A stretch of DNA of 12,859 nucleotides from positions 1 through 12,859 of the forward strand of contig JAFGKQ010000057.1 in assembly GCA_016928495.1 (NCBI GenBank), written 5' to 3'. Of the stretch, positions 732 to 12,302 are shown piece after piece. Source of the stretch: Candidatus Fermentibacterales bacterium (lineage in GTDB: Bacteria > Fermentibacterota > Fermentibacteria > Fermentibacterales > JAFGKQ01). The notes beneath the pieces are model-generated. The model did no database searches and was not told the origin of the DNA. It worked only from the letters and a program-made list of their open reading frames with translations. Each line of letters starts with the position of its first letter. Within the stretch, counting starts at the first letter, position 1. A program made the position numbers and the translations under genes.

Positions 732-1577
732 TCAGGAAATCTGCCGCGCTCGCTTCCAGGCGGTCAGGGTATTGGCCAGGAGGAACGCTATGGTTAGCGG
801 CCCGACACCTCCGGGGACCGGCGTGATGGCCTCGACCGTATCCGCGACGGCGTCGAAGTCCACATCACCGCGGAGACCCTCCTCGGTTCGCGATATGCCG
901 ACATCGACGACGGTCATGCCCGGCCTGACGAAGGAGGGCCCGACGAACCCGGGGCGACCCACGGCGGCGACCAGCAGATCGGCTTTTCTCGAGAGCGCGG
1001 GAAGGTCCCGGGTGTGGGAGTGTGCGAGAGTGACGGTGCAGTTCTCCCGGAGCAGCATCGCGGCCAGCGGCTTGCCCACGATGTTGCTCCGGCCGATGAT
1101 CACGGCGCTGGCGCCGTCGAGAGGAACACCCTCCTCGGCGAGAAGCGCGACTATCCCCCTCGGCGTGCAGGGGAAGAGACCCTGCTCGCCTCTCCAGAGG
1201 CAGCCGACGTTGACGGGATGGAGACCATCGACGTCCTTGTCGGGATCGATGGCCGCCGCGACCTTCGAGGGCGAGATCCGGGGCGGAAGCGGCAACTGGC
1301 ACAGGATGCCGTCGATCGAGTCGTCGGCGTTCAGCTCGGAGACCACCCGGAGAACGCTGCCTTCGGAGGCGTCCGTGTCCAGCCTTCTCAGCACGGACAC
1401 TATCCCGGCCTTCTCGCAGGCCTTCTGCTTGCTGGCGACGTAGGTCTCGCTTGCGGGATCCTGGCCGACCAGGATGACCGCGAGGCCGGGCGGGCGTCCT
1501 CCGGCCCGCAGGACGGACTCGGCCACGTCGCTCCTGACTCGCCCGGCGAGCTCACGACCCTTCAGTAGCTTCGGCAC
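732..1577 (-). CDS. folD: Bifunctional methylenetetrahydrofolate dehydrogenase / methenyltetrahydrofolate cyclohydrolase
   Basis: FolD oxidises 5,10-methylene-THF with NAD(P)+ and hydrolyses the product to 10-formyl-THF, the one-carbon donor for purine ring synthesis and initiator-tRNA formylation. The 281-residue product has the usual family length and all landmark motifs. These are Y46xxxK50 (catalytic lysine region), QLPLP (94-98), the DKDVDGLHPVN segment (113-123), PCTP (136-139), the nucleotide-binding loop GRSNIVGKP (162-170), DVGI (225-228) and TPVPGGVGP (252-260). The GTG start at 1575-1577 gives a proper FolD N-terminus (KLLKGREL) and has AAGGA and GGAG just upstream. It lies 26 bases inside the end of rplU, so the gene is probably translated from the same transcript and driven by the rplU promoter. 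The pur genes upstream make a link to purine synthesis natural. Confidence 0.96.
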   Translation of the reverse strand: MPKLLKGRELAGRVRSDVAESVLRAGGRPPGLAVILVGQDPASETYVASKQKACEKAGIVSVLRRLDTDASEGSVLRVVSELNADDSIDGILCQLPLPPRISPSKVAAAIDPDKDVDGLHPVNVGCLWRGEQGLFPCTPRGIVALLAEEGVPLDGASAVIIGRSNIVGKPLAAMLLRENCTVTLAHSHTRDLPALSRKADLLVAAVGRPGFVGPSFVRPGMTVVDVGISRTEEGLRGDVDFDAVADTVEAITPVPGGVGPLTIAFLLANTLTAWKRARQIS

Positions 1578-1944
1578 TCTCCGGGTCCTTCTCCTGCTTC
1601 TTCTGTCTCTGCTTCCTGTCGAGGCTCTCCACGAGTACCCGCGTGAAGCTCTGCCTGTGGCCCATCCGCTTCTCGTATCCCTTGCGCCGCTTACGCTTAT
1701 AGACGAGGATCCTGGGTCCGCGCCCGTGCTCGACCACCCTGGCCACGACCGTGACTCCTCCCAGCACTGGCTGACCGATCTCGATCCCCTTCTCGTCGGA
1801 GATGAGGAGCACCCTGTCGAATCTGAGCTTCGCTCCCTCTCTCTGGTCGACACGGGGAATCAGGACCTGTCTCCCGGGAGCCATCCGGAACTGCATGCCG
1901 CCGGTTTCGACAATCGCGTACGAGTCCAAGTCCGTTACCTCCAT
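1552..1944 (-). CDS. rplU: 50S ribosomal protein L21
   Basis: This is an L21 protein of the large ribosomal subunit. The product (130 residues from the ATG at 1942-1944) shows the family opening SYAIVETGG, the central IGQPVLGG region and the basic signature KRKRRKGYEKRMGHRQ (83-98), followed by FTRV. Residues 109-130 form an extra tail that is first Lys/Gln-rich and then acidic. Bacterial L21 is usually about 100-105 residues, so the tail is the unusual part. An earlier in-frame ATG at 1998 is rejected, because the added 18 residues do not look like L21 and they cover a good promoter. AAGGA lies just before the chosen start. The gene follows rng by 82 bases, a conserved pairing, but the usual downstream ysxB and rpmA (L27) are absent and folD overlaps instead. 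Confidence 0.95.
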   Translation of the reverse strand: MEVTDLDSYAIVETGGMQFRMAPGRQVLIPRVDQREGAKLRFDRVLLISDEKGIEIGQPVLGGVTVVARVVEHGRGPRILVYKRKRRKGYEKRMGHRQSFTRVLVESLDRKQRQKKQEKDPESAEATEGS

Positions 1945-2026: not shown

Positions 2027-3559
2027 CTAGTCGTGGAACTCGACTATCTCCTCGTGAGCGTCCAGGGAGTAGACACGGAAGCCGTCAACCCGGAGGCCCG
2101 GATCCTCATGGAGCTCTATCCTGAGGTCCTGCACGGAGCGGCAGAGGTGATCCAGCCTCCTCCCCTCGTCCTCGAGCAGGTACGCGGCCAGAGACGGGTG
2201 AATGGAGACCACGAGGTCCCTGTGCCTCTTCTTGATGGCGGCTCTCTCCAGGAAGCGTTCGAGCCTCGTGGCGGCGGAGACGGGCCCCATGACCCTGCCG
2301 CTTCCCCCGCAGTGCTCGCATGGCTCGGACAATGCCTGGATCAGACTGGGGCGCACGCGTTTCCTCGTCATCTCCACCAGGCCGAGCGTGCTCACCTGGC
2401 AGGTCTTCGTGGGAGACCTGTCCTTGCCCAGCTCGCTCCTCAGGCACTGGAGCACCTTCTCCCTGTGCTCCTCGTTCTCCATGTCTATGAAGTCGATGAC
2501 GATGAGCCCGCCGAGGTCTCTCAGCCGCAACTGCCTGGCGACCTCCTTCGCCGCCTCCATGTTGGTCTTCAGAATCGTGCTCTCCTGACTGCGCTTTCCG
2601 ACGTAGCGTCTGGTGTTGACGTCTATCGCCACGAGAGCTTCGGTGTGCTCTATGACCAGCGAGCCCCCGCTCTTGAGCGGAACGTCCCGGTGAAGGAGCT
2701 GATCGATCTGTGGCTCGATGCCGTAGTGATCGAAGATCGGTGTTCTGCCGCGGTAGTAGCGTACCTTCCTGGCCAGCCCCGGGTCGGTCTTCTTCAGGTA
2801 CTGCCTTGCGAGCCTGCACACCTCTTTCGAGTCGGTGATGAAGGCGTCCATGTCCGGAGAGAACATGTCCCGCATAGCGGTCGTCACCGCATCGTACTCC
2901 TGATGCAGGAGTGCGGGGGCACGGGAGGCGAGGGCAAGCTCCCCGACCTCCTTCCATCTCTCGATGAGCCCCTGTATGTCGCCGGAGAAGCTCTCCTCGC
3001 TCTGCCCGGTCCCCACGGTCCTCGCGATGATCCCGAAACCGTCCACCTGGATGTGATCCAGCACTTTCCTGAGCCGCTGCCTCTCCCTCCTGTCTCCGAT
3101 CTTGCGGGAGACCCCGGAAACGGGATCGCCAGGCATGCTGACCACGTAGCGGCCTGCGATCGAGATCCTCGTGCTGACCCGTGCCCCCTTGGTGCCGATG
3201 GGCTCCTTGGTTACCTGCACGAGTATCTCCTGCCCCTTCCTGAGCAGGCTCTCGATGGACTGCTCGCTGTCCCTGCCGACGAGGGGCTTGCCGTCGCGGA
3301 GCGAGGAGGAGAACTCCCTTGCATCCAGATTGCCGTCTCTCAAGTCCGAGACGTGGAGGAAGGCGCTCCTCTCGAGCCCGATGTCCACGAAGGCCGCCTG
3401 CATGCCGGGCAGAACCGCGCTGACGCTTCCCAGGTAGATGTTGCCGACGATGCGCCGGGAGTCGGCCTTGTCCACGATCAGCTCCATCAGCCGCTCGTCT
3501 TCCCTGAGCGCGATCCTCGTGACGTCCGGGTGGACGTTTACTATGAAATCGGTCTTCAA
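2027..3559 (-). CDS. rng: Ribonuclease G (RNase E/G family)
   Basis: This is a cytoplasmic endoribonuclease that matures rRNA 5' ends and takes part in mRNA decay. The 510-residue product aligns along the whole of RNase G. It has an N-terminal NVHPDVTRIAL strand, the S1-domain signature RRIVGNIYLGSV with GMQAAFVDIG (about 35-130), and the DNase I-like catalytic core with metal-binding D313 (AIDVNT) and D356 (VIDFIDM). The zinc-link CEHC (Cys414, Cys417) follows, and then a small C-terminal domain. It lacks the long disordered RNase E tail, hence the call RNase G. The start is TTG (3557-3559), which fits the family N-terminus and overlaps the previous stop as TTGA, with AGAGG just upstream. 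Placement between the TIGR03960 radical SAM gene and rplU is a conserved bacterial arrangement. Confidence 0.93.
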   Translation of the reverse strand: MKTDFIVNVHPDVTRIALREDERLMELIVDKADSRRIVGNIYLGSVSAVLPGMQAAFVDIGLERSAFLHVSDLRDGNLDAREFSSSLRDGKPLVGRDSEQSIESLLRKGQEILVQVTKEPIGTKGARVSTRISIAGRYVVSMPGDPVSGVSRKIGDRRERQRLRKVLDHIQVDGFGIIARTVGTGQSEESFSGDIQGLIERWKEVGELALASRAPALLHQEYDAVTTAMRDMFSPDMDAFITDSKEVCRLARQYLKKTDPGLARKVRYYRGRTPIFDHYGIEPQIDQLLHRDVPLKSGGSLVIEHTEALVAIDVNTRRYVGKRSQESTILKTNMEAAKEVARQLRLRDLGGLIVIDFIDMENEEHREKVLQCLRSELGKDRSPTKTCQVSTLGLVEMTRKRVRPSLIQALSEPCEHCGGSGRVMGPVSAATRLERFLERAAIKKRHRDLVVSIHPSLAAYLLEDEGRRLDHLCRSVQDLRIELHEDPGLRVDGFRVYSLDAHEEIVEFHD

Positions 3560-5997
3560 GCCTCTGCGTTCCCTTCCTGGAGAAGGGGAACCAGATCATC
3601 CCCTCTCCTGGCGTAGATGTCTTTTCTAATGATAAGAGGCCTCGGGGTCGAGGAGCCCGGCAGGGAGAGCCTGTCGATGAGAAGGTCCGGCCTGTTGCTT
3701 CTCGAGCCGAGCACGGTGAGTATCTCGAGCACGCCGGGCCCCCGCAGCACCGTCTCCAGCACGGCCTCCTCCGACGCCAGCGCCTCCGAGAGCCTCCACG
3801 CCTCGTCCGGAGGCAGACCTTCTATCTGGTATCTCGCGGCGCAGGCCACCCGGTCGGGAGCGGCCGCCTTCCTCTCGAGCAGAGCGACGCCCCTCACGGA
3901 GTAGCCTTCGGGCAGGCCGTCGCTCAGCCGATCGGCGCAGTCTGCCGGCGCGATCCCGACAAGGTCGACGTCCACGTACTCGCCCTCGCTGGCCATGCCG
4001 AGAGGGAGAGGAGGCCCGAACCTGAGTCTCGGTCTCGGGACGTGACCGTGGCTGTAGGCCACGGGGAGGCCGGCCCTCCTCAGCGTTCTCGTCCAGAGGC
4101 GCACCATGTCGAGATGAGAGCTGAACCTGGCTCTGCCGCTCTTGCCGTATCTCACTCTGAGCCTCTGGGCCACCTGCCCGTCGATGTCGGCAGCCGCGTC
4201 ACTCCCTGCACCCGAAGGCTGCCCTGCCAGGCCCCCGGTCGGGGAGAGCACCCGCGTGACCAGGCCGGGGCATGCCCCGCACCCCGAGCACCTGCCGGCT
4301 TCCCTGCAGTCGGGAGTCGTCTCGGCGTCAAGGTAGGCCCGGTACTCCGAGCGCAGGAAGTCCCTGCTCACTCCGGTCGAGATGAACTCCCACGGCAGCT
4401 CGGCGTCTCTTTCCGAGCGCACCCACTCGATCAGGCCAGGCTGCTCACGCAGCAGCTCCTCCCAGACTTCCCATCTCAGATGGTCGCTCCACCCGTCGAG
4501 CCGGGCCCCCCTCGAGGAGGCCTCCTCGAGCAGCGTGGATGCCCTCTCGTCTCCCAGGCCGAGCACCGCCTCTATGACCGCCTGCCTGGGATCGTTCCAG
4601 ACGACCCTGGCAAACCTCCCACAGGCGTCCCTGAGAATCCCCAACCGACGCTCCAGCTCCTCCAGCGGCATCTGGGGAGCCCTCTCCAGAGGTGTGTGGG
4701 GCTTGGGCGAGAATGGAGACACGGAAACGGTCACCGCCCTCTTCGATCCTGCCTTCCGGCGACCCGAGCCTCCCTTCAGCGACGCAACCTCCCTGACGAG
4801 CCGGGCGGTGGCCGCGAGGTCGTCCTCGGTCTCCATGGGAAGCCCGATCATGAAATAGAGCTTTATGCCGGTGGCTCCCATGCAAAAGGCCCTCTCGGCC
4901 GCAGCAACGACAATGTCGTTGCCCAGATTCTTGTTGAGGCGTCTCCCCAGCAGCTCCGATCCTGTCTCGGGAGCGAGGGTCAGCCTCCCCCGAACCGGAG
5001 AGGAGGGATCCAGCCGCAGCAGGCTGTCAGGGCGGAGCGAGGGTCTGGAGACCGCGGTGTGGGTCCTGGCCTCGAACTCGGCCACACGGGCCATCAGGCC
5101 GGCCAGATCGCTGTAGTCGGAGAAGGAGAGACTCAGAAGCCCCGCCTCCTCCCAGCCAGTCGAGGATATCGCCTCTTCGAGGATGGAGGCGATATCGTCT
5201 ATGGAGCGCTCCCTCACGGGTCTTCCCGTGAAGCTCGAGATGCAGAAGCGGCAGCCCCTGCTACAGCCCCTGGCGATCTCCACCACCGCCCTGTCATGGC
5301 TCACGGCACAGGTCGGAACCGGAGGCCTGACCGGAGCATCGGCCCGGAGCAGCGCCGGGACCCTCTGAAGCTCGACGGGCCGCCTCCCGAGCAATGGAGC
5401 GTACACCCCCGGAACGGAGGAAGCGGCCGACTCCAGTCTGGATCTCCTGCTCCCGGACCCGGCGGCGATCCCGAAGAGCTCCTCCGCATGCTGCTCTGCC
5501 TCGCCCAGGAAGAAGAGGTCTACGAAAGGCTCGAGAGCAAGCGGGTTCGACACCGCCCCCCCGCCGGCGATGACCAGGGGGTGCTCTTCGGTCCTGTCGG
5601 CGGATCGCACCGGGATCCCCGAGAGCCGGAGCATGTGCAGGACGTTGGTGAAGAGAAGCTCGGAGCTGACGGAGAACCCGATCGCCCTGGAGGTGGCTAT
5701 CCTGTCGCCGCCTTCGAGATCTGCGAGCGGCGTTCCGCTGCTCTCGAGAAGGACGGACATGTCCGGCGCGGGCACGAAGGCTCTGCGGACGTCGAAGCGC
5801 CCCGAGCGAAGCAGCAGGTGCCTTACTATGGTCATCCCGGCGTTCGACATGCCCAGCTCGTAGAGGTCCGGGTAGAGAAGTGTCACTCTCGGAGAGGCCC
5901 TTCGCGGGGCGCCGGTGTTCCACTCTCCCCCGGCGTACTGCTGAGGCTTCTGGACCTCTGCCAGGAAGGGCTCGTAGGGATGCGGATCGAAGGTCAT
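3556..5997 (-). CDS. TIGR03960-type radical SAM protein fused to DUF2344 domain
   Basis: The 813-residue protein is of unknown reaction. Residues about 1-235 form a B12-binding-like N-terminal part that begins with the family-typical 'KPQQYAGGEWN'. Residues about 236-460 form a radical SAM barrel with the cluster motif CSRGCRFC (Cys245, Cys249, Cys252), SFSDYSDL and LAPETGS. A second cysteine cluster follows (Cys564, 570, 573, 576), typical of the family. After a Gly/Ser/Ala-rich linker (about 585-605), the DUF2344 domain (about 611-800) starts with LRVRYGKSGRARFSSHLD. The two parts are separate genes in many Firmicutes and fused elsewhere. The ATG is at 5995-5997, and an upstream extension to 6261 is not protein-like. 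The gene starts 10 bases after the PurS-like gene and has no Shine-Dalgarno; the leader instead contains ACCTCC. Expression probably depends on coupling. A link to tRNA or rRNA modification is only inferred from the rng-rplU context. Confidence 0.88.
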   Translation of the reverse strand: MTFDPHPYEPFLAEVQKPQQYAGGEWNTGAPRRASPRVTLLYPDLYELGMSNAGMTIVRHLLLRSGRFDVRRAFVPAPDMSVLLESSGTPLADLEGGDRIATSRAIGFSVSSELLFTNVLHMLRLSGIPVRSADRTEEHPLVIAGGGAVSNPLALEPFVDLFFLGEAEQHAEELFGIAAGSGSRRSRLESAASSVPGVYAPLLGRRPVELQRVPALLRADAPVRPPVPTCAVSHDRAVVEIARGCSRGCRFCISSFTGRPVRERSIDDIASILEEAISSTGWEEAGLLSLSFSDYSDLAGLMARVAEFEARTHTAVSRPSLRPDSLLRLDPSSPVRGRLTLAPETGSELLGRRLNKNLGNDIVVAAAERAFCMGATGIKLYFMIGLPMETEDDLAATARLVREVASLKGGSGRRKAGSKRAVTVSVSPFSPKPHTPLERAPQMPLEELERRLGILRDACGRFARVVWNDPRQAVIEAVLGLGDERASTLLEEASSRGARLDGWSDHLRWEVWEELLREQPGLIEWVRSERDAELPWEFISTGVSRDFLRSEYRAYLDAETTPDCREAGRCSGCGACPGLVTRVLSPTGGLAGQPSGAGSDAAADIDGQVAQRLRVRYGKSGRARFSSHLDMVRLWTRTLRRAGLPVAYSHGHVPRPRLRFGPPLPLGMASEGEYVDVDLVGIAPADCADRLSDGLPEGYSVRGVALLERKAAAPDRVACAARYQIEGLPPDEAWRLSEALASEEAVLETVLRGPGVLEILTVLGSRSNRPDLLIDRLSLPGSSTPRPLIIRKDIYARRGDDLVPLLQEGNAEA

Positions 5998-6007
5998 CGG
6001 GGGAGGT

Positions 6008-6547
6008 CTAGCTGCTCGCCTCGTCGTAGAGCTTCGCTTCCTGCGAGACGGGATTGGCGAGCAAGCCCACCCTCCTCGATCGCGTGAGAGCCACGGCCAT
6101 CGCGTTCTCCTCCGCAACCTCCCGGGCAGTCCCGGGAGGGTAGCCGAGCCTCCACAGGACGCCGCACTGCACCCGGCGGACGCCGAAGCGGGAAGCCCGG
6201 AGAATCCTGGACCAGTTCTCGGAGCGGCTGTCGTCGTGGTCCTTGACGACCAGCCACACACGGGTCTGAGATCGATCCTCTCCGGGAACGCTGTCCGGGT
6301 GGCCCAGCTTCATCCACGACTGCTTGTTGGGGTTCACGATATCCGTATAGCTGGCTATCAGGGATCTCACCCGATCCATGGTGTCCGTCCCCGGGCTCAT
6401 CTCCAGCTCCCAGAGGTCGTACCTGCCGAGCGAGACGGGGGCCTCCCCCGGCATCGTCCGCCGGAGCGTGGACAGAGCGGTGGATGCGGCGGGATCTACG
6501 GCCTTCAGCCTGACAGCGATCATCACTCTCCTCGTCGCTTCGCTCAT
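6008..6547 (-). CDS. purS: Tandem PurS-domain protein, probable FGAM synthase PurS subunit
   Basis: The 179-residue protein is about twice the length of ordinary PurS (about 80). It appears to hold two PurS-like halves, residues 8-81 and 95-175. Each half starts with a beta strand then a DP/DD turn and a helix (VRLKAVDPA; VWLVVKDHDD). A strand pair follows (DLWELEM; VLWRLGY), then PGT, and the half closes on an NPxxQ motif (N72-P73-Q76; N165-P166-Q169, within GLLANPVSQE). PurS dimers bridge PurL and PurQ in FGAM synthase, so a covalent pair could do the same. Deltaproteobacterial PurL proteins carry similar tandem domains at their N-terminus (from memory). The ATG overlaps the purQ stop as ATGA. 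PurL here is the small type that needs a PurS, and no other candidate is present in this window. The family assignment is inference from internal symmetry and context. Confidence 0.72.
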   Translation of the reverse strand: MSEATRRVMIAVRLKAVDPAASTALSTLRRTMPGEAPVSLGRYDLWELEMSPGTDTMDRVRSLIASYTDIVNPNKQSWMKLGHPDSVPGEDRSQTRVWLVVKDHDDSRSENWSRILRASRFGVRRVQCGVLWRLGYPPGTAREVAEENAMAVALTRSRRVGLLANPVSQEAKLYDEASS

Positions 6548-7377
6548 CGGTCCACCCTGACACCGAAGCTGTTCGCCAGACCTGCGAAGACCGTCGCGCC
6601 GGGGCCCTCCGGCCCGGTGCCCTCCATGGGTCCGGAGAGCGCCCTCCTCCGGTCACCCCACGGCCCGCAGAGGGAGGGAGGGACCTGCCACAGACATGCC
6701 GCCCTTTCCGGGTGGGGCATCATCGCCAGCACGTTGCCTTCCATGTTGGAGATGGCTGCGGCGTCGTCACAGGAGCCATTGGGGTTCCAGGGGAAGCCCC
6801 CTGGGTCCCCCCCGTCCGGAGCGCAGTACCTCAGCGCGGTCACCTGAGGGCCGCGGGAGGACGCTCCCCCTGTAGCGAACACGAACCTTCCCTCCGCGTG
6901 CGCGATGGGAAGGGGCAGAACCTGACCCGGCTCCATCAGCGAGAGCCACGGGCACCTCGCCGCGACCTCCTGTCCGGGAAGGAGGTAGATCCACCTGCTG
7001 AGATAGCCGCTCCGGCCCGGGCTCATGTTGCCGGCCAGGGCTGCCTCCACGTTCCCGGCGCTCCATCCGGGGACCAGCCCGCTCTCGACGAGGATCTGAG
7101 CCCCGTTGCAGATGCCCAGCACGGGCTTGCCAGCGCCCGCAGCGCGGACGACCGCGTCCATCACGGCCTCCTTGGCCGCAACGGCGCCGGCCCTCACCCG
7201 GTCCTGGAACGAGAAGCCGCCGGGAAGGATGAAGGCGTCGCAGGCCTCTATCCCCGCGGAGCGATCGTTCCAGCGCACGACCCTCGCGTCCAGGCCCTGG
7301 GACCGGGCAGCCCTGGCGGTCTCGTACTCGCAGTTGGAGCCCGGGAACTGCAGGACCGCAACAAGTGGCCCGCTCAT
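6544..7377 (-). CDS. purQ: Phosphoribosylformylglycinamidine synthase, glutaminase subunit PurQ
   Basis: This is the class I glutamine amidotransferase subunit of FGAM synthase, which hydrolyses glutamine and passes ammonia to PurL. The 277-residue product starts with VAVLQFPGSNCEYET. It shows the oxyanion region LPGGFSFQDRVRAG (51-64), the nucleophile elbow GICNGAQ with Cys90, and the catalytic pair His222/Glu224 in MMPHPERA. It is longer than the roughly 225-residue Bacillus type because of extra sequence around residues 170-205 and at 230-262, as in longer PurQ forms. The ATG (7375-7377) overlaps the purL stop as ATGA and is preceded by GAGGAGGG at good distance. An upstream in-frame ATG at 7458 lies inside purL and is rejected. 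Order purL-purQ-purS is the reverse of the common purS-purQ-purL. Confidence 0.96.
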   Translation of the reverse strand: MSGPLVAVLQFPGSNCEYETARAARSQGLDARVVRWNDRSAGIEACDAFILPGGFSFQDRVRAGAVAAKEAVMDAVVRAAGAGKPVLGICNGAQILVESGLVPGWSAGNVEAALAGNMSPGRSGYLSRWIYLLPGQEVAARCPWLSLMEPGQVLPLPIAHAEGRFVFATGGASSRGPQVTALRYCAPDGGDPGGFPWNPNGSCDDAAAISNMEGNVLAMMPHPERAACLWQVPPSLCGPWGDRRRALSGPMEGTGPEGPGATVFAGLANSFGVRVDR

Positions 7378-9728
7378 GTCAGGCCCTCCTCGCGCCACAC
7401 GACCGACGCCAGCCTGTCGAAGTGCCCGGAGGCGATGCTCTCGAGATCGACGCTCCATCCGGAGCCCCTTATGACCAGGCCCTCCACGACTCGACCCACC
7501 ACCCTCGCGAAAGGGGGCAGGTCTTCCGGGCAGCGGCCCTGTGCGATCTCGAGGACATAGCCCGGTGACTCCGAGTAGAGAGCCACGGGGTCCCTTCCCG
7601 TATCGGGAAGCTCGGCGCCCAGGCAGGTCCAGGAGCGGCTGGCGAGAGACATCTCGGCAAGCGCCACGGCGAGTCCCCCTTCGGAGATGTCGTGACAGGC
7701 ATGGACATCGTCTCCGAGGTCACGCAGCAGCTCGAGCACGCAGAGGGCCATCTTCCTCTCCAGCGTCCCGTCGAAACCCGGCACCCTTCCTCCCGCGTGC
7801 CCGATGCACTCCCTGTAGTAGAGGCTCCCGCCCAGAGCGTCCATTCTCTCTCCCAGCAGCAGCAGGCTGCTTCCGGCAGACCTCAGCCCGATCCCCCTGG
7901 CGTGCGAGGCATCATCGAGCCTCCCTGCCACGCAGACTATGGGCGATGGGGGGATCGGACCGCCTCCCGGCGACTGGTTGTAGAAGCTGACGTTCCCGGA
8001 GACGATGGGCAGGGGAGCTTCGCATTCGCTCACATCCGGCAGGCCCAGGCACTCGCAGGCATGGGCGATGCCCCGAACGGACTCCCGGAACTGCCAGAAG
8101 ACCGACGGGTCCTCGGGGTTGCCGAAGTTCAGGCAATCCGTCGCGCACATGGGTCTCGCGCCGGTGGCCACGACGTTCCTGACGGCCTCTCCTACGGCGT
8201 GCGCACCGCCCTGGAAGGGATCGATGCGGCCTATGAAGGGGTTGCCGTCGCCGCTGATCGCGATTCCGACACTCGAGCCGGGGAGCGGCCTGATAACGAC
8301 CGCGTCAGACTCGCCGGGACGCAGCATCGTGTTGCCCTGGACCTCGCTGTCGTAGTAGCTCCATATGGCGGACCTGCTGCAGCAGGCCATCCCGGTGAGC
8401 ATCCGCTCGATGTCCGCGGGCGGGTCGCAGGCCCGTTCCGCGGGCTCGCTCTGATCCCCCGGAGCCTCGCTCCAGGGACGCTCGTAGGATACCCCCGCCA
8501 CGATGGCCTCGGCGGGAGCCTCCGCTATCAGGTCCCTCCCGGCTCCTCTCGTGACCCGGTAGACGGGGTCAGGCGTGAACCTGCCTACCACCTCGGCCCT
8601 GGCGCCCGGGAAGAGCCTGGGCAGCTCGTAGTCATCGTTGTAGATGCCGATGATATCCGGCGCGATGTCGCGGGGAACGGCCAGGCCGAAGCGCTCCTGA
8701 GTCTCGGCGCAGGCTACCACCTCGGGGGGAAGACCCTCGATCGAGACTGGCACTCTGTCCAGATCCAGCTCGATCCCCATCCCGGAGTGGGCGGCCATCT
8801 CACTGCTCACGCAAGCGATCCCGCCGGCCCCGAGATCCTTGAAGCCGAACTCTATCCCCCTCTCGTGAAGCAGTCTCTGTACCGCTCTGTTGGCTTCCGA
8901 CAGCACCCTCTTCAGGAAAGGGTCCGCCACCTGGACCGCGCCGAGCTGCTCCTCCAGGACGGCAGATGCGAAGGTGGCCCCGCCGAAGCCGGTATCGTCC
9001 GTGGGCTTCCCGACCAATATCAGAACGTACTCCTCGTCCCGGGCGCGCTCGGGAACGTAACTGTGGACGATCCAGTCATGCCTGGCCAGCCCGACGGCAA
9101 CGACATTGACGAGGCAGTTGTCGTCGTAGGAGCCGCAGAAGACGGTGTCCCCCCCCAGGTTGGGAACCCCCAGCGCGTTCGCGTACTGCCAGATCCCCTC
9201 GACGACCCCCCTGACGATGGACCTGGTCCTGGAGCCCCTGGGCCCCAGCGGGTCGCCGAAGCGAAGCAGGTCCAGGACGCCGATCACATCCGCGCCCATG
9301 CAGTAGACATCCCTGACGATTCCGCCTATCCCGGTCGCCGCGCCCTCCACGGGCAGTATCTGGGAAGGGTGGTTGTGGCTCTCGTGCGCTATCACCAGGT
9401 CGTACTCGACACCGTCATGAACGCAAAGCCTCACCACGCCGGCATCTTCGCCGGGGCCCAGCACTACCTGCGGCGCGTCGGTCGGAAGGGTGCGGAGCTG
9501 CGAGCGGGAACTCTTGTAGGAGCAGTGCTCGCTCCACATGGTGTCGAAGAGGTGCAGCTCGAGCGGGGTGGGACGCCTGCCGACGATGGAGGCGAGGTGC
9601 CTCGCCTCCTCCAGGGTCATCGCCAGGCCCCTGGCTTCTATCTCCCCGATCAGAGCGGAGTCCAGGCCGGGATCCGGTCCGGAGCGATCATCCCGGCAGC
9701 CGGCAGGGGCCGGCCGGTCAGCCGTCAT
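7374..9728 (-). CDS. purL: Phosphoribosylformylglycinamidine synthase, synthetase subunit PurL (small type)
   Basis: PurL turns FGAR, ATP and ammonia (from PurQ) into FGAM, the fourth step of purine synthesis. The 784-residue product is slightly longer than the usual 720-760 of the small, three-subunit type. It lacks the C-terminal glutaminase of the 1,300-residue type. Visible hallmarks are MWSEHCSYKSS (64-74), the metal/ATP region HNHPSQILPVEGAATGIGG (118-136), GVPNLGGDTVF (187-197), DLGAGGI (298-304) and VQGNTMLRPG (463-472). Further hallmarks are TDCLNFGNPEDP (530-541), VSGNVSFYNQS (576-586) and CHDISEGGLAVALAEM (678-693). The two AIRS-like halves are therefore intact. The first 30 residues are Pro/Asp/Arg-rich and poorly conserved, so the exact start is less certain. 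The ATG at 9726-9728 overlaps the GAF/GGDEF gene by 11 bases, with GAGGAG about 11 bases upstream. Confidence 0.97.
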   Translation of the reverse strand: MTADRPAPAGCRDDRSGPDPGLDSALIGEIEARGLAMTLEEARHLASIVGRRPTPLELHLFDTMWSEHCSYKSSRSQLRTLPTDAPQVVLGPGEDAGVVRLCVHDGVEYDLVIAHESHNHPSQILPVEGAATGIGGIVRDVYCMGADVIGVLDLLRFGDPLGPRGSRTRSIVRGVVEGIWQYANALGVPNLGGDTVFCGSYDDNCLVNVVAVGLARHDWIVHSYVPERARDEEYVLILVGKPTDDTGFGGATFASAVLEEQLGAVQVADPFLKRVLSEANRAVQRLLHERGIEFGFKDLGAGGIACVSSEMAAHSGMGIELDLDRVPVSIEGLPPEVVACAETQERFGLAVPRDIAPDIIGIYNDDYELPRLFPGARAEVVGRFTPDPVYRVTRGAGRDLIAEAPAEAIVAGVSYERPWSEAPGDQSEPAERACDPPADIERMLTGMACCSRSAIWSYYDSEVQGNTMLRPGESDAVVIRPLPGSSVGIAISGDGNPFIGRIDPFQGGAHAVGEAVRNVVATGARPMCATDCLNFGNPEDPSVFWQFRESVRGIAHACECLGLPDVSECEAPLPIVSGNVSFYNQSPGGGPIPPSPIVCVAGRLDDASHARGIGLRSAGSSLLLLGERMDALGGSLYYRECIGHAGGRVPGFDGTLERKMALCVLELLRDLGDDVHACHDISEGGLAVALAEMSLASRSWTCLGAELPDTGRDPVALYSESPGYVLEIAQGRCPEDLPPFARVVGRVVEGLVIRGSGWSVDLESIASGHFDRLASVVWREEGLT

Positions 9729-10994: not shown

Positions 10995-12302
10995 TCAGGC
11001 CTGGTCCAGGACTCCTGCCCTCTCCAGTATCGAGTCCTCTCTCGAGACCAGCCTCTCCAGACGGCAGAGCTCCCTGACCCTGTCCTCCCCGAGCGTCTTT
11101 CGAATGGCAGGGTCCGCTGCCGCGCGGTCCACGAAGCTCACGTCGCCCGCCTCGTCCTCGGCCAGTGCCAGCGACTGCACGATCCCGTAGGCCTCCTCAC
11201 GGCTCATGCCGCCGTCGATCAGGGCCAGGAGCAGGGTCTGTGTGTAGTAGGAATCGCCCGCTTCCTCGAGGTTCCTGGCGACGGCACGCCCGTTTATGGT
11301 CAGACCCCGGGCCAGCTCCTCGGCCTTCCGGATGGAGTAGAGGGCAACGCCGCAGGCATCGGGAAGGATGAAGCGCTCGGCAGCGGAGTGGCTTATGTCC
11401 CGCTCGTGCCAGAGCGCCGTGTTCTCGAGCCCGACCAGCAGGTATCCGCGGAGCAGTCTGGCCATGCCGCAGAGCCTCTCGCTGACGATGGGGTTCCTCT
11501 TGTGAGGCATCGCACTCGACCCCTTCTGACCGGCCCGGAACGCCTCCATGACCTCACCGACCTCGCTCCTCTGAAGATGCCTTATCTCCTGCGCGAACCT
11601 CTCCAGCATGTTGCCGGCACGGCAGAGGGCCCACAGGAACCCGGCGATGCGATCACGCGGGACGACCTGTGTGGCAACCGGCTCCGCGCCGATCCCGAGC
11701 TTCGAGCAGACGTGCTCCTCTACCCCGGGCGGAATGTGTGCGAACGTACCGACAGCCCCGCTCAGCTTGCCGAAGCTCGCCTGCTCGACGGCGGAGCGCA
11801 GAGCATCCAGCGCCCGCGCGCATTCCGAGTGGAAGCCGGCGAACTTCAGGGCGTAGGTCGTCGGCTCGGCATACATCCCGTGGGTCCTTCCCATGCAGAC
11901 CAGACCACGGGTCCTCAGGCACAGGTCCCTGAGGGAGTCGAGCAGCTTCTCCAGGGCATCGACCAGAAGCCTCCCCGAGTCCCGGATCTGGGTTGCCAGG
12001 CAGGTGTCCAGCACATCGCTGGAGGTCATGCCGTAGTGCAGGTGCCTGGACTCGGGGCCGAGGCCTTCCGACACGCAGGTCAGGAACGCAATCACGTCGT
12101 GCCTGACCCTGGCCTCGATCTCGTCTATGCGGGCTGCGTCGAACCGGGCGCCGGCCCTTATCGACTCCAGGTCCTCCAGGGGGACATCGCCCGAGAGGAC
12201 TCGCGCCTCGGTTGCGAGCAGCTCGATCTCGAGCCACCTGGCAAACCTGGAATCCCTCGACCAGATCTCTTCCATCTCCGGCACAGAGTATCTCTCGATC
12301 AC
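10995..12302 (-). CDS. purB: Adenylosuccinate lyase
   Basis: PurB removes fumarate from SAICAR to give AICAR, and from adenylosuccinate to give AMP. It is a cytoplasmic homotetramer. The 435-residue product has the family's usual length and all signatures. These are the opening MIERYSVPEMEEIW, HDVIAF (68-73), the TSSD loop (93-96), GRTHGMYAEPTT with catalytic His141, and the fumarase-superfamily signature GSSAMPHKRNP (261-271) with the mobile-loop serine at 263. The start codon is GTG (12300-12302), chosen because the family N-terminus begins there and GAGGAG lies 7 bases upstream. The preceding gene ends 92 bases earlier and a plausible promoter sits in that gap, so purB may open the purine transcription unit. 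The following gap of 119 bases holds a hairpin. Confidence 0.97.
   Translation of the reverse strand: MIERYSVPEMEEIWSRDSRFARWLEIELLATEARVLSGDVPLEDLESIRAGARFDAARIDEIEARVRHDVIAFLTCVSEGLGPESRHLHYGMTSSDVLDTCLATQIRDSGRLLVDALEKLLDSLRDLCLRTRGLVCMGRTHGMYAEPTTYALKFAGFHSECARALDALRSAVEQASFGKLSGAVGTFAHIPPGVEEHVCSKLGIGAEPVATQVVPRDRIAGFLWALCRAGNMLERFAQEIRHLQRSEVGEVMEAFRAGQKGSSAMPHKRNPIVSERLCGMARLLRGYLLVGLENTALWHERDISHSAAERFILPDACGVALYSIRKAEELARGLTINGRAVARNLEEAGDSYYTQTLLLALIDGGMSREEAYGIVQSLALAEDEAGDVSFVDRAAADPAIRKTLGEDRVRELCRLERLVSREDSILERAGVLDQA

Follow-up and report, generated by a model that had tools for sequence, protein, structure and literature searches.

The window, by which we mean the whole stretch of 12,859 nucleotides analysed here, carries on its minus strand purB, a GAF/GGDEF-like gene, purL, purQ, the tandem PurS gene tPurS, a radical SAM gene, rng, an L21-like gene and folD, in this order (Table 1); rng, folD and the L21-like gene were assigned from the sequence, without a family search, and the source genome assembly is 81% complete. 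The purL stop and the likely purQ start share a 4-base overlap (ATGA), as do the purQ TGA stop and the tPurS ATG, and the radical SAM gene, with its start as given in Table 1, begins 10 bases 3' of tPurS. Between purB and purL lies a GAF plus weak GGDEF protein whose position is conserved across the order Fermentibacterales. No GGDEF motif was seen by eye in its sequence, and it is a possible degenerate cyclase-like regulator in the purine operon. The L21-like ribosomal protein gene is found 3' of rng and is followed by folD, with no L27 gene there in the window.

Table 1. Features of the window, and tandem PurS genes at loci of other genomes (positions are those of the window or of the locus named).
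Feature	Place	Positions	Strand	Basis and remarks
tPurS (tandem PurS gene)	window	6008..6547	-	179 aa; predicted single-chain PurS dimer; from ORF, orthologs, profile and structure matches
tPurS N-terminal PurS-like repeat	window	6293..6547	-	residues 1-85; predicted E6-14 H19-31 E39-50 H56-71, then NPNKQ
tPurS C-terminal PurS-like repeat	window	6011..6271	-	residues 93-179; predicted E96-104 H109-116 E123-136 H142-159 E170-173; GLLANPVSQ
purQ	window	6544..7377	-	TIGR01737, 204.6 bits, above cut-off; start at MSGPLVAVLQFPG inferred
purL, small type	window	7374..9728	-	784 aa ORF; TIGR01736, 616 bits, cut-off 525.75
GAF/GGDEF-like gene	window	10875-9718	-	between purB and purL
purB	window	10995..12302	-	head of conserved cluster; TIGR00928, 430 bits, above cut-off; same order in relatives
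Radical SAM gene	window	3556..5997	-	TIGR03960/TIGR03936-type; start inferred; conserved downstream neighbour within order
L21-like ribosomal protein gene	window	1998-1552	-	3' of rng
Other free-standing tandem PurS	L079 (G079)	5851-6333		161-165 aa
Other free-standing tandem PurS	L080 (G080)	1162-1653		161-165 aa
Other free-standing tandem PurS	L081 (G097)	7479-7973		161-165 aa
tPurS, outside order	L122	6341-6874	+	beside apparent riboflavin genes
tPurS, outside order	L123	6052-6594	-	beside apparent riboflavin genes
PurQ then tPurS in one ORF	L174 (G238)	4242-5492	-	417 aa

An earlier sequence-only reading had described the same order of features in both halves of tPurS, and hence an internal duplication. 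Each half indeed has a turn (D-P in VDPAAS in the first, D-D in HDDSRS in the second), an LW pair (YDLWEL and GVLWRL), a PGT and a closing NPxxQ (NPNKQ and NPVSQ), and conserved columns recur in both halves across 25 divergent family members (W46/W132 and N72-P73/N165-P166). With Fermentibacterota sequences alone, the N half aligned to the C half with a score not above that of column-shuffled controls, but in the broader family the hhalign score was 43.2 against a null of 9.2 +/- 1.9, with none of 60 shuffles as good. The repeat is hence beyond chance, though visible in the wider family only, and the duplication proposed from the motifs stands. The further proposal that only the second half keeps a PurS ending held in part: GLLANP is confined to the second half, but across the family the first half closes with NPNK, which is just as well conserved.

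Pfam and NCBIfam models searched against tPurS and its halves gave no match, save for one spurious 10-bit listing far under cut-off, and at the curated cut-off of the PurS model PF02700 there were no matches to tPurS or to either half; the profile search suggested earlier for each half against the PurS family thus returned nothing in its direct form. Likewise, a search of the tPurS family against PDB sequences with hmmsearch returned chance matches only. Whereas PurS is a single domain of ~80 residues that acts as a homodimer, tPurS has 179 residues and two repeats. Relationship to PurS emerged from profile-profile comparison of 60 tPurS family members with 30 PurS sequences, using column-shuffled nulls: hhalign scored 27.0 for the N half (null 9.7 +/- 1.9) and 40.9 for the C half (null 9.0 +/- 2.1), and 0 of 40 shuffles reached the score in either case. 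Moreover, PF02700 directly matched four of eight homologs tested from outside the order at E 6e-4 to 2e-3, in the first half of one, the second half of two and two stretches of the fourth. Such outside homologs score 19-20 bits where the cut-off is 22.2, and the tPurS of genome G107, at 23.0 bits, exceeds it. Conversely, the weakest matches of a broad tPurS profile (A4), built without PurS sequences, are the genuine purS genes of G050, G192 and G198.

The predicted structure of the window tPurS was of low confidence (pLDDT 58), and a fold search with it returned common alpha-beta folds only. An ortholog from Candidatus Sabulitectum (L031; Candidatus Fermentibacterota), 41% identical to the window protein, gave a model of moderate confidence (pLDDT 67) in which one order of elements occurs twice (E2-10 H15-26 E35-46 H51-65 E69-75, then E88-96 H100-112 E117-131 H136-153 E162-168). 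In VIA-align, residues 1-166 of this model superposed on the N-domain of the Salmonella and human large FGAR-AT (residues 0-142 or 3-156) in 18 entries, at Z 8.5-10.3 over 137-147 residues and 3.0-3.4 A. Next in rank were four PurS chains, aligned on the C half at Z 4.5-5.2 and 2.0-2.7 A, among them PurS 2yx5 (75 residues, 2.0 A, Z 5.2); all other entries had Z <= 4.2. In Foldseek, too, the top match was large FGAR-AT (E 1.5e-3, probability 1.00). Since the PurS homodimer and the large PurL N-domain are homologs (PMC3815217), the ortholog model, superposing on this PurS-dimer equivalent and on PurS 2yx5, displays the PurS-like fold that had been expected.

tPurS occurs in 41 of the 42 Fermentibacterales genomes, a single-sequence search sufficing to find it in 40 of the 41 others (39-55% identity); the only genome without it, G036, is 73% complete and lacks PurL likewise. 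It adjoins purQ wherever checked in the order, and on contigs long enough to show it the arrangement purB-(GAF/GGDEF-like)-purL-purQ-tPurS-radical SAM-rng-folD recurs throughout the order. Across 66 loci, with a few genomes counted twice, tPurS mostly overlaps or abuts purQ (by 4 bases in 20 and by 1 base in 15). Beyond the order, an initial profile (A1) retrieved homologs, about 20 of them, from other families of the domain, and the broader A4 profile found tPurS in 26 genomes of a 385-genome sample, a count that omits single-domain-size matches in G123 and in G050, G192 and G198, the latter three coinciding with listed PF02700 genes. Where these outside loci have enough contig, purL-purQ mostly lies directly upstream of tPurS, often after purB, and the PurL is ~50% identical to that of the window. 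At three outside loci (L122, L123 and L140) tPurS is beside neither purL nor purQ. L122 and L123, from two genomes of one family, have the same gene downstream of tPurS. In G238, a genome of 0.9 Mb, PurQ and tPurS form one ORF; since purQ and tPurS generally share 1 or 4 bases, a sequencing frameshift may account for it.

Ordinary purS is missing where tPurS is present. Searched with PF02700, all 42 Fermentibacterales genomes, the source genome included, lacked a gene above cut-off, which answers the earlier suggestion to look there for a conventional purS. At E 1e-3, 221 genomes of the 385-genome sample had a PurS match: none of the 42 in the order, none of the 26 outside genomes with tPurS and 221 of the 317 others. 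For the outside genomes (0/26 versus 221/317) the Fisher p is 3e-13, a guide only, as the genomes are not fully independent. A separate PF02700 search of 21 of these 26 genomes found one gene over cut-off, which is the tPurS of G107. PurL was matched in all 26.

An ordinary small-type FGAR amidotransferase consists of PurL, PurQ and a PurS dimer, and large PurL has their equivalents in one chain. We conclude that tPurS is very probably a covalent PurS dimer of two diverged domains that, in a small-type FGAR amidotransferase, takes the place of the PurS homodimer as third subunit. This agrees with the sequence-only reading, in which a free-standing gene 3' of purL-purQ encodes a PurS with an internal duplication, given the PurS-like repeats, the structural match and the lack of an ordinary purS; the two findings named there as speaking against it, a fold unlike PurS or a normal purS together with no predicted PurL or PurQ contact, did not turn up. 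PurS is a homodimer, without which homologs of large PurL function poorly, and in large PurL the N-domain contacts the synthetase domain over 1033 A2 and the glutaminase domain more extensively, over 1919 A2 (PMC3815217). By analogy, a single tPurS chain would associate with a PurL (FGAM synthetase) and a PurQ (glutaminase) in a 1:1:1 complex and would keep PurQ in place on PurL, letting ammonia from glutamine reach the FGAR site. Both the fusion with PurQ and the position of tPurS after purQ fit a close contact between the two proteins. It is plausible, judging from the sequence, that the halves contact PurL and PurQ unequally, as W and NP are kept in both but their surroundings differ (NPNK versus GLLANPxxQ).

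tPurS thus resembles several known proteins without coinciding with any. With PurS (PF02700; B. subtilis, T. maritima 3d54, M. jannaschii 2yx5) it shares the fold of each half, an NP-containing ending and clustering with purQ and a purL of small type, but it has two differing domains per chain, ~165-190 residues instead of ~80 and a gene after purQ, and in Fermentibacterota it is out of reach of the PurS model. Like the N-domain of large FGAR-AT/PFAS (PF18076; Salmonella 1t3t, human 9nb3), it is a single-chain pseudodimer of two PurS-like folds; unlike it, tPurS is encoded separately, with a separate small-type PurL and PurQ, and has no match to PF18076. PurL-fused tandem PurS proteins (open frames of ~970-1045 residues) also have two PurS-like repeats in one chain, whereas tPurS is a separate ORF and its PurL is of a different clade. 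In the mdPurL of some archaea, ~200 extra residues form an N-terminal extension that stands in for PurS (PMC3261824). Other free-standing genes with two PurS repeats, those of G079, G080 and G097, differ from tPurS in that PF02700 recognises both repeats and they resemble the fused kind, as in their GVTD motif; also, the G097 PurL groups with the fused kind, unlike PurLs of tPurS genomes.

Two other readings of tPurS can be set against this one. That it is an unrelated ferredoxin-like (ACT- or PII-like) regulator, present in a purine operon by chance, would suit the want of a curated PurS match and the common alpha-beta folds retrieved with the weaker window model, but is extremely improbable in view of the profile statistics of both halves, the direct Pfam PurS matches of homologs, the top structural ranking of FGAR-AT and PurS, the mutual exclusion of tPurS and purS across genomes and the PurQ-tPurS fusion in G238. 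That it is an N-terminal domain split off a large single-chain PurL by fission is very improbable: the whole-length structural match is to that very domain, but the FGAR-AT_N model PF18076 does not match tPurS, the gene is located after purQ and not before purL, and the adjacent PurL is of small type, reaching 616 bits with TIGR01736 versus 86-112 bits, well under their cut-offs, with the large bacterial models. The two large PurLs sampled, moreover, fall on a separate long branch in the PurL tree.

In this tree, which comprised the two large and seven tandem-type PurLs besides ordinary PurLs chosen as best scorers of the PurL model, the PurLs of tPurS genomes form one clade (SH-aLRT 100) that is sister to ordinary PurS-type PurLs (100), with fused-tandem PurLs and the G097 PurL outside. 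A tree constrained to unite the PurLs of tPurS genomes and fused PurLs in one clade was rejected (AU p = 0.034). The earlier proposal that free-standing tandem PurS is an intermediate stage, giving rise to the form fused to a PurL of ~1000 residues, therefore fared poorly and appears unlikely. Fused tandem PurS-PurL proteins do exist (L082-L086, L093), and a shared duplication is compatible with half-domain trees constrained to unite the first halves of tPurS and of the fused proteins (AU p 0.62) or their second halves (0.52), neither of which was rejected; in the free half-domain tree, however, the two tPurS halves join each other (99.8). The free-standing genes of G079, G080 and G097 are better candidates for such an intermediate, their sequence type being nearer the fused kind.

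Returning to tPurS as a covalent PurS dimer, we favour, with some reservation, its recognition as a fourth FGAR amidotransferase architecture, besides PurS/PurL/PurQ, PurL-fused tandem PurS with PurQ and large single-chain PurL. It would comprise small PurL, PurQ and, as a protein of its own, an asymmetric covalent PurS dimer. It would be old, occur in many bacterial families, have a PurL clade to itself and stem from a duplication separate from that in the fused PurLs. The kind as such is already known, in view of the N-terminal PurS stand-in fused to PurL (PMC3261824) and the free-standing genes of G079, G080 and G097. Our searches of the open-licence literature yielded no account of tandem PurS as a free-standing gene, nor any of a diverged PurS dimer that has a separate gene and a PurL clade to itself and is missed by curated models. 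Disagreement over the physiologically relevant form of PurS has been noted (PMC3261824), and the function of the large PurL N-domain has been described as lacking a clear explanation (PMC3815217). With two diverged PurS protomers naturally joined as a heterodimer in a single chain, the contacts of each with PurL and PurQ would become testable singly, and a new family model could readily be built for tPurS. The fourth architecture, if true, would explain genomes that seem to be purS-less. As a covalent PurS dimer, tPurS closes the apparent purS gap in the purine pathway of a whole phylum and of 26 other sampled genomes.
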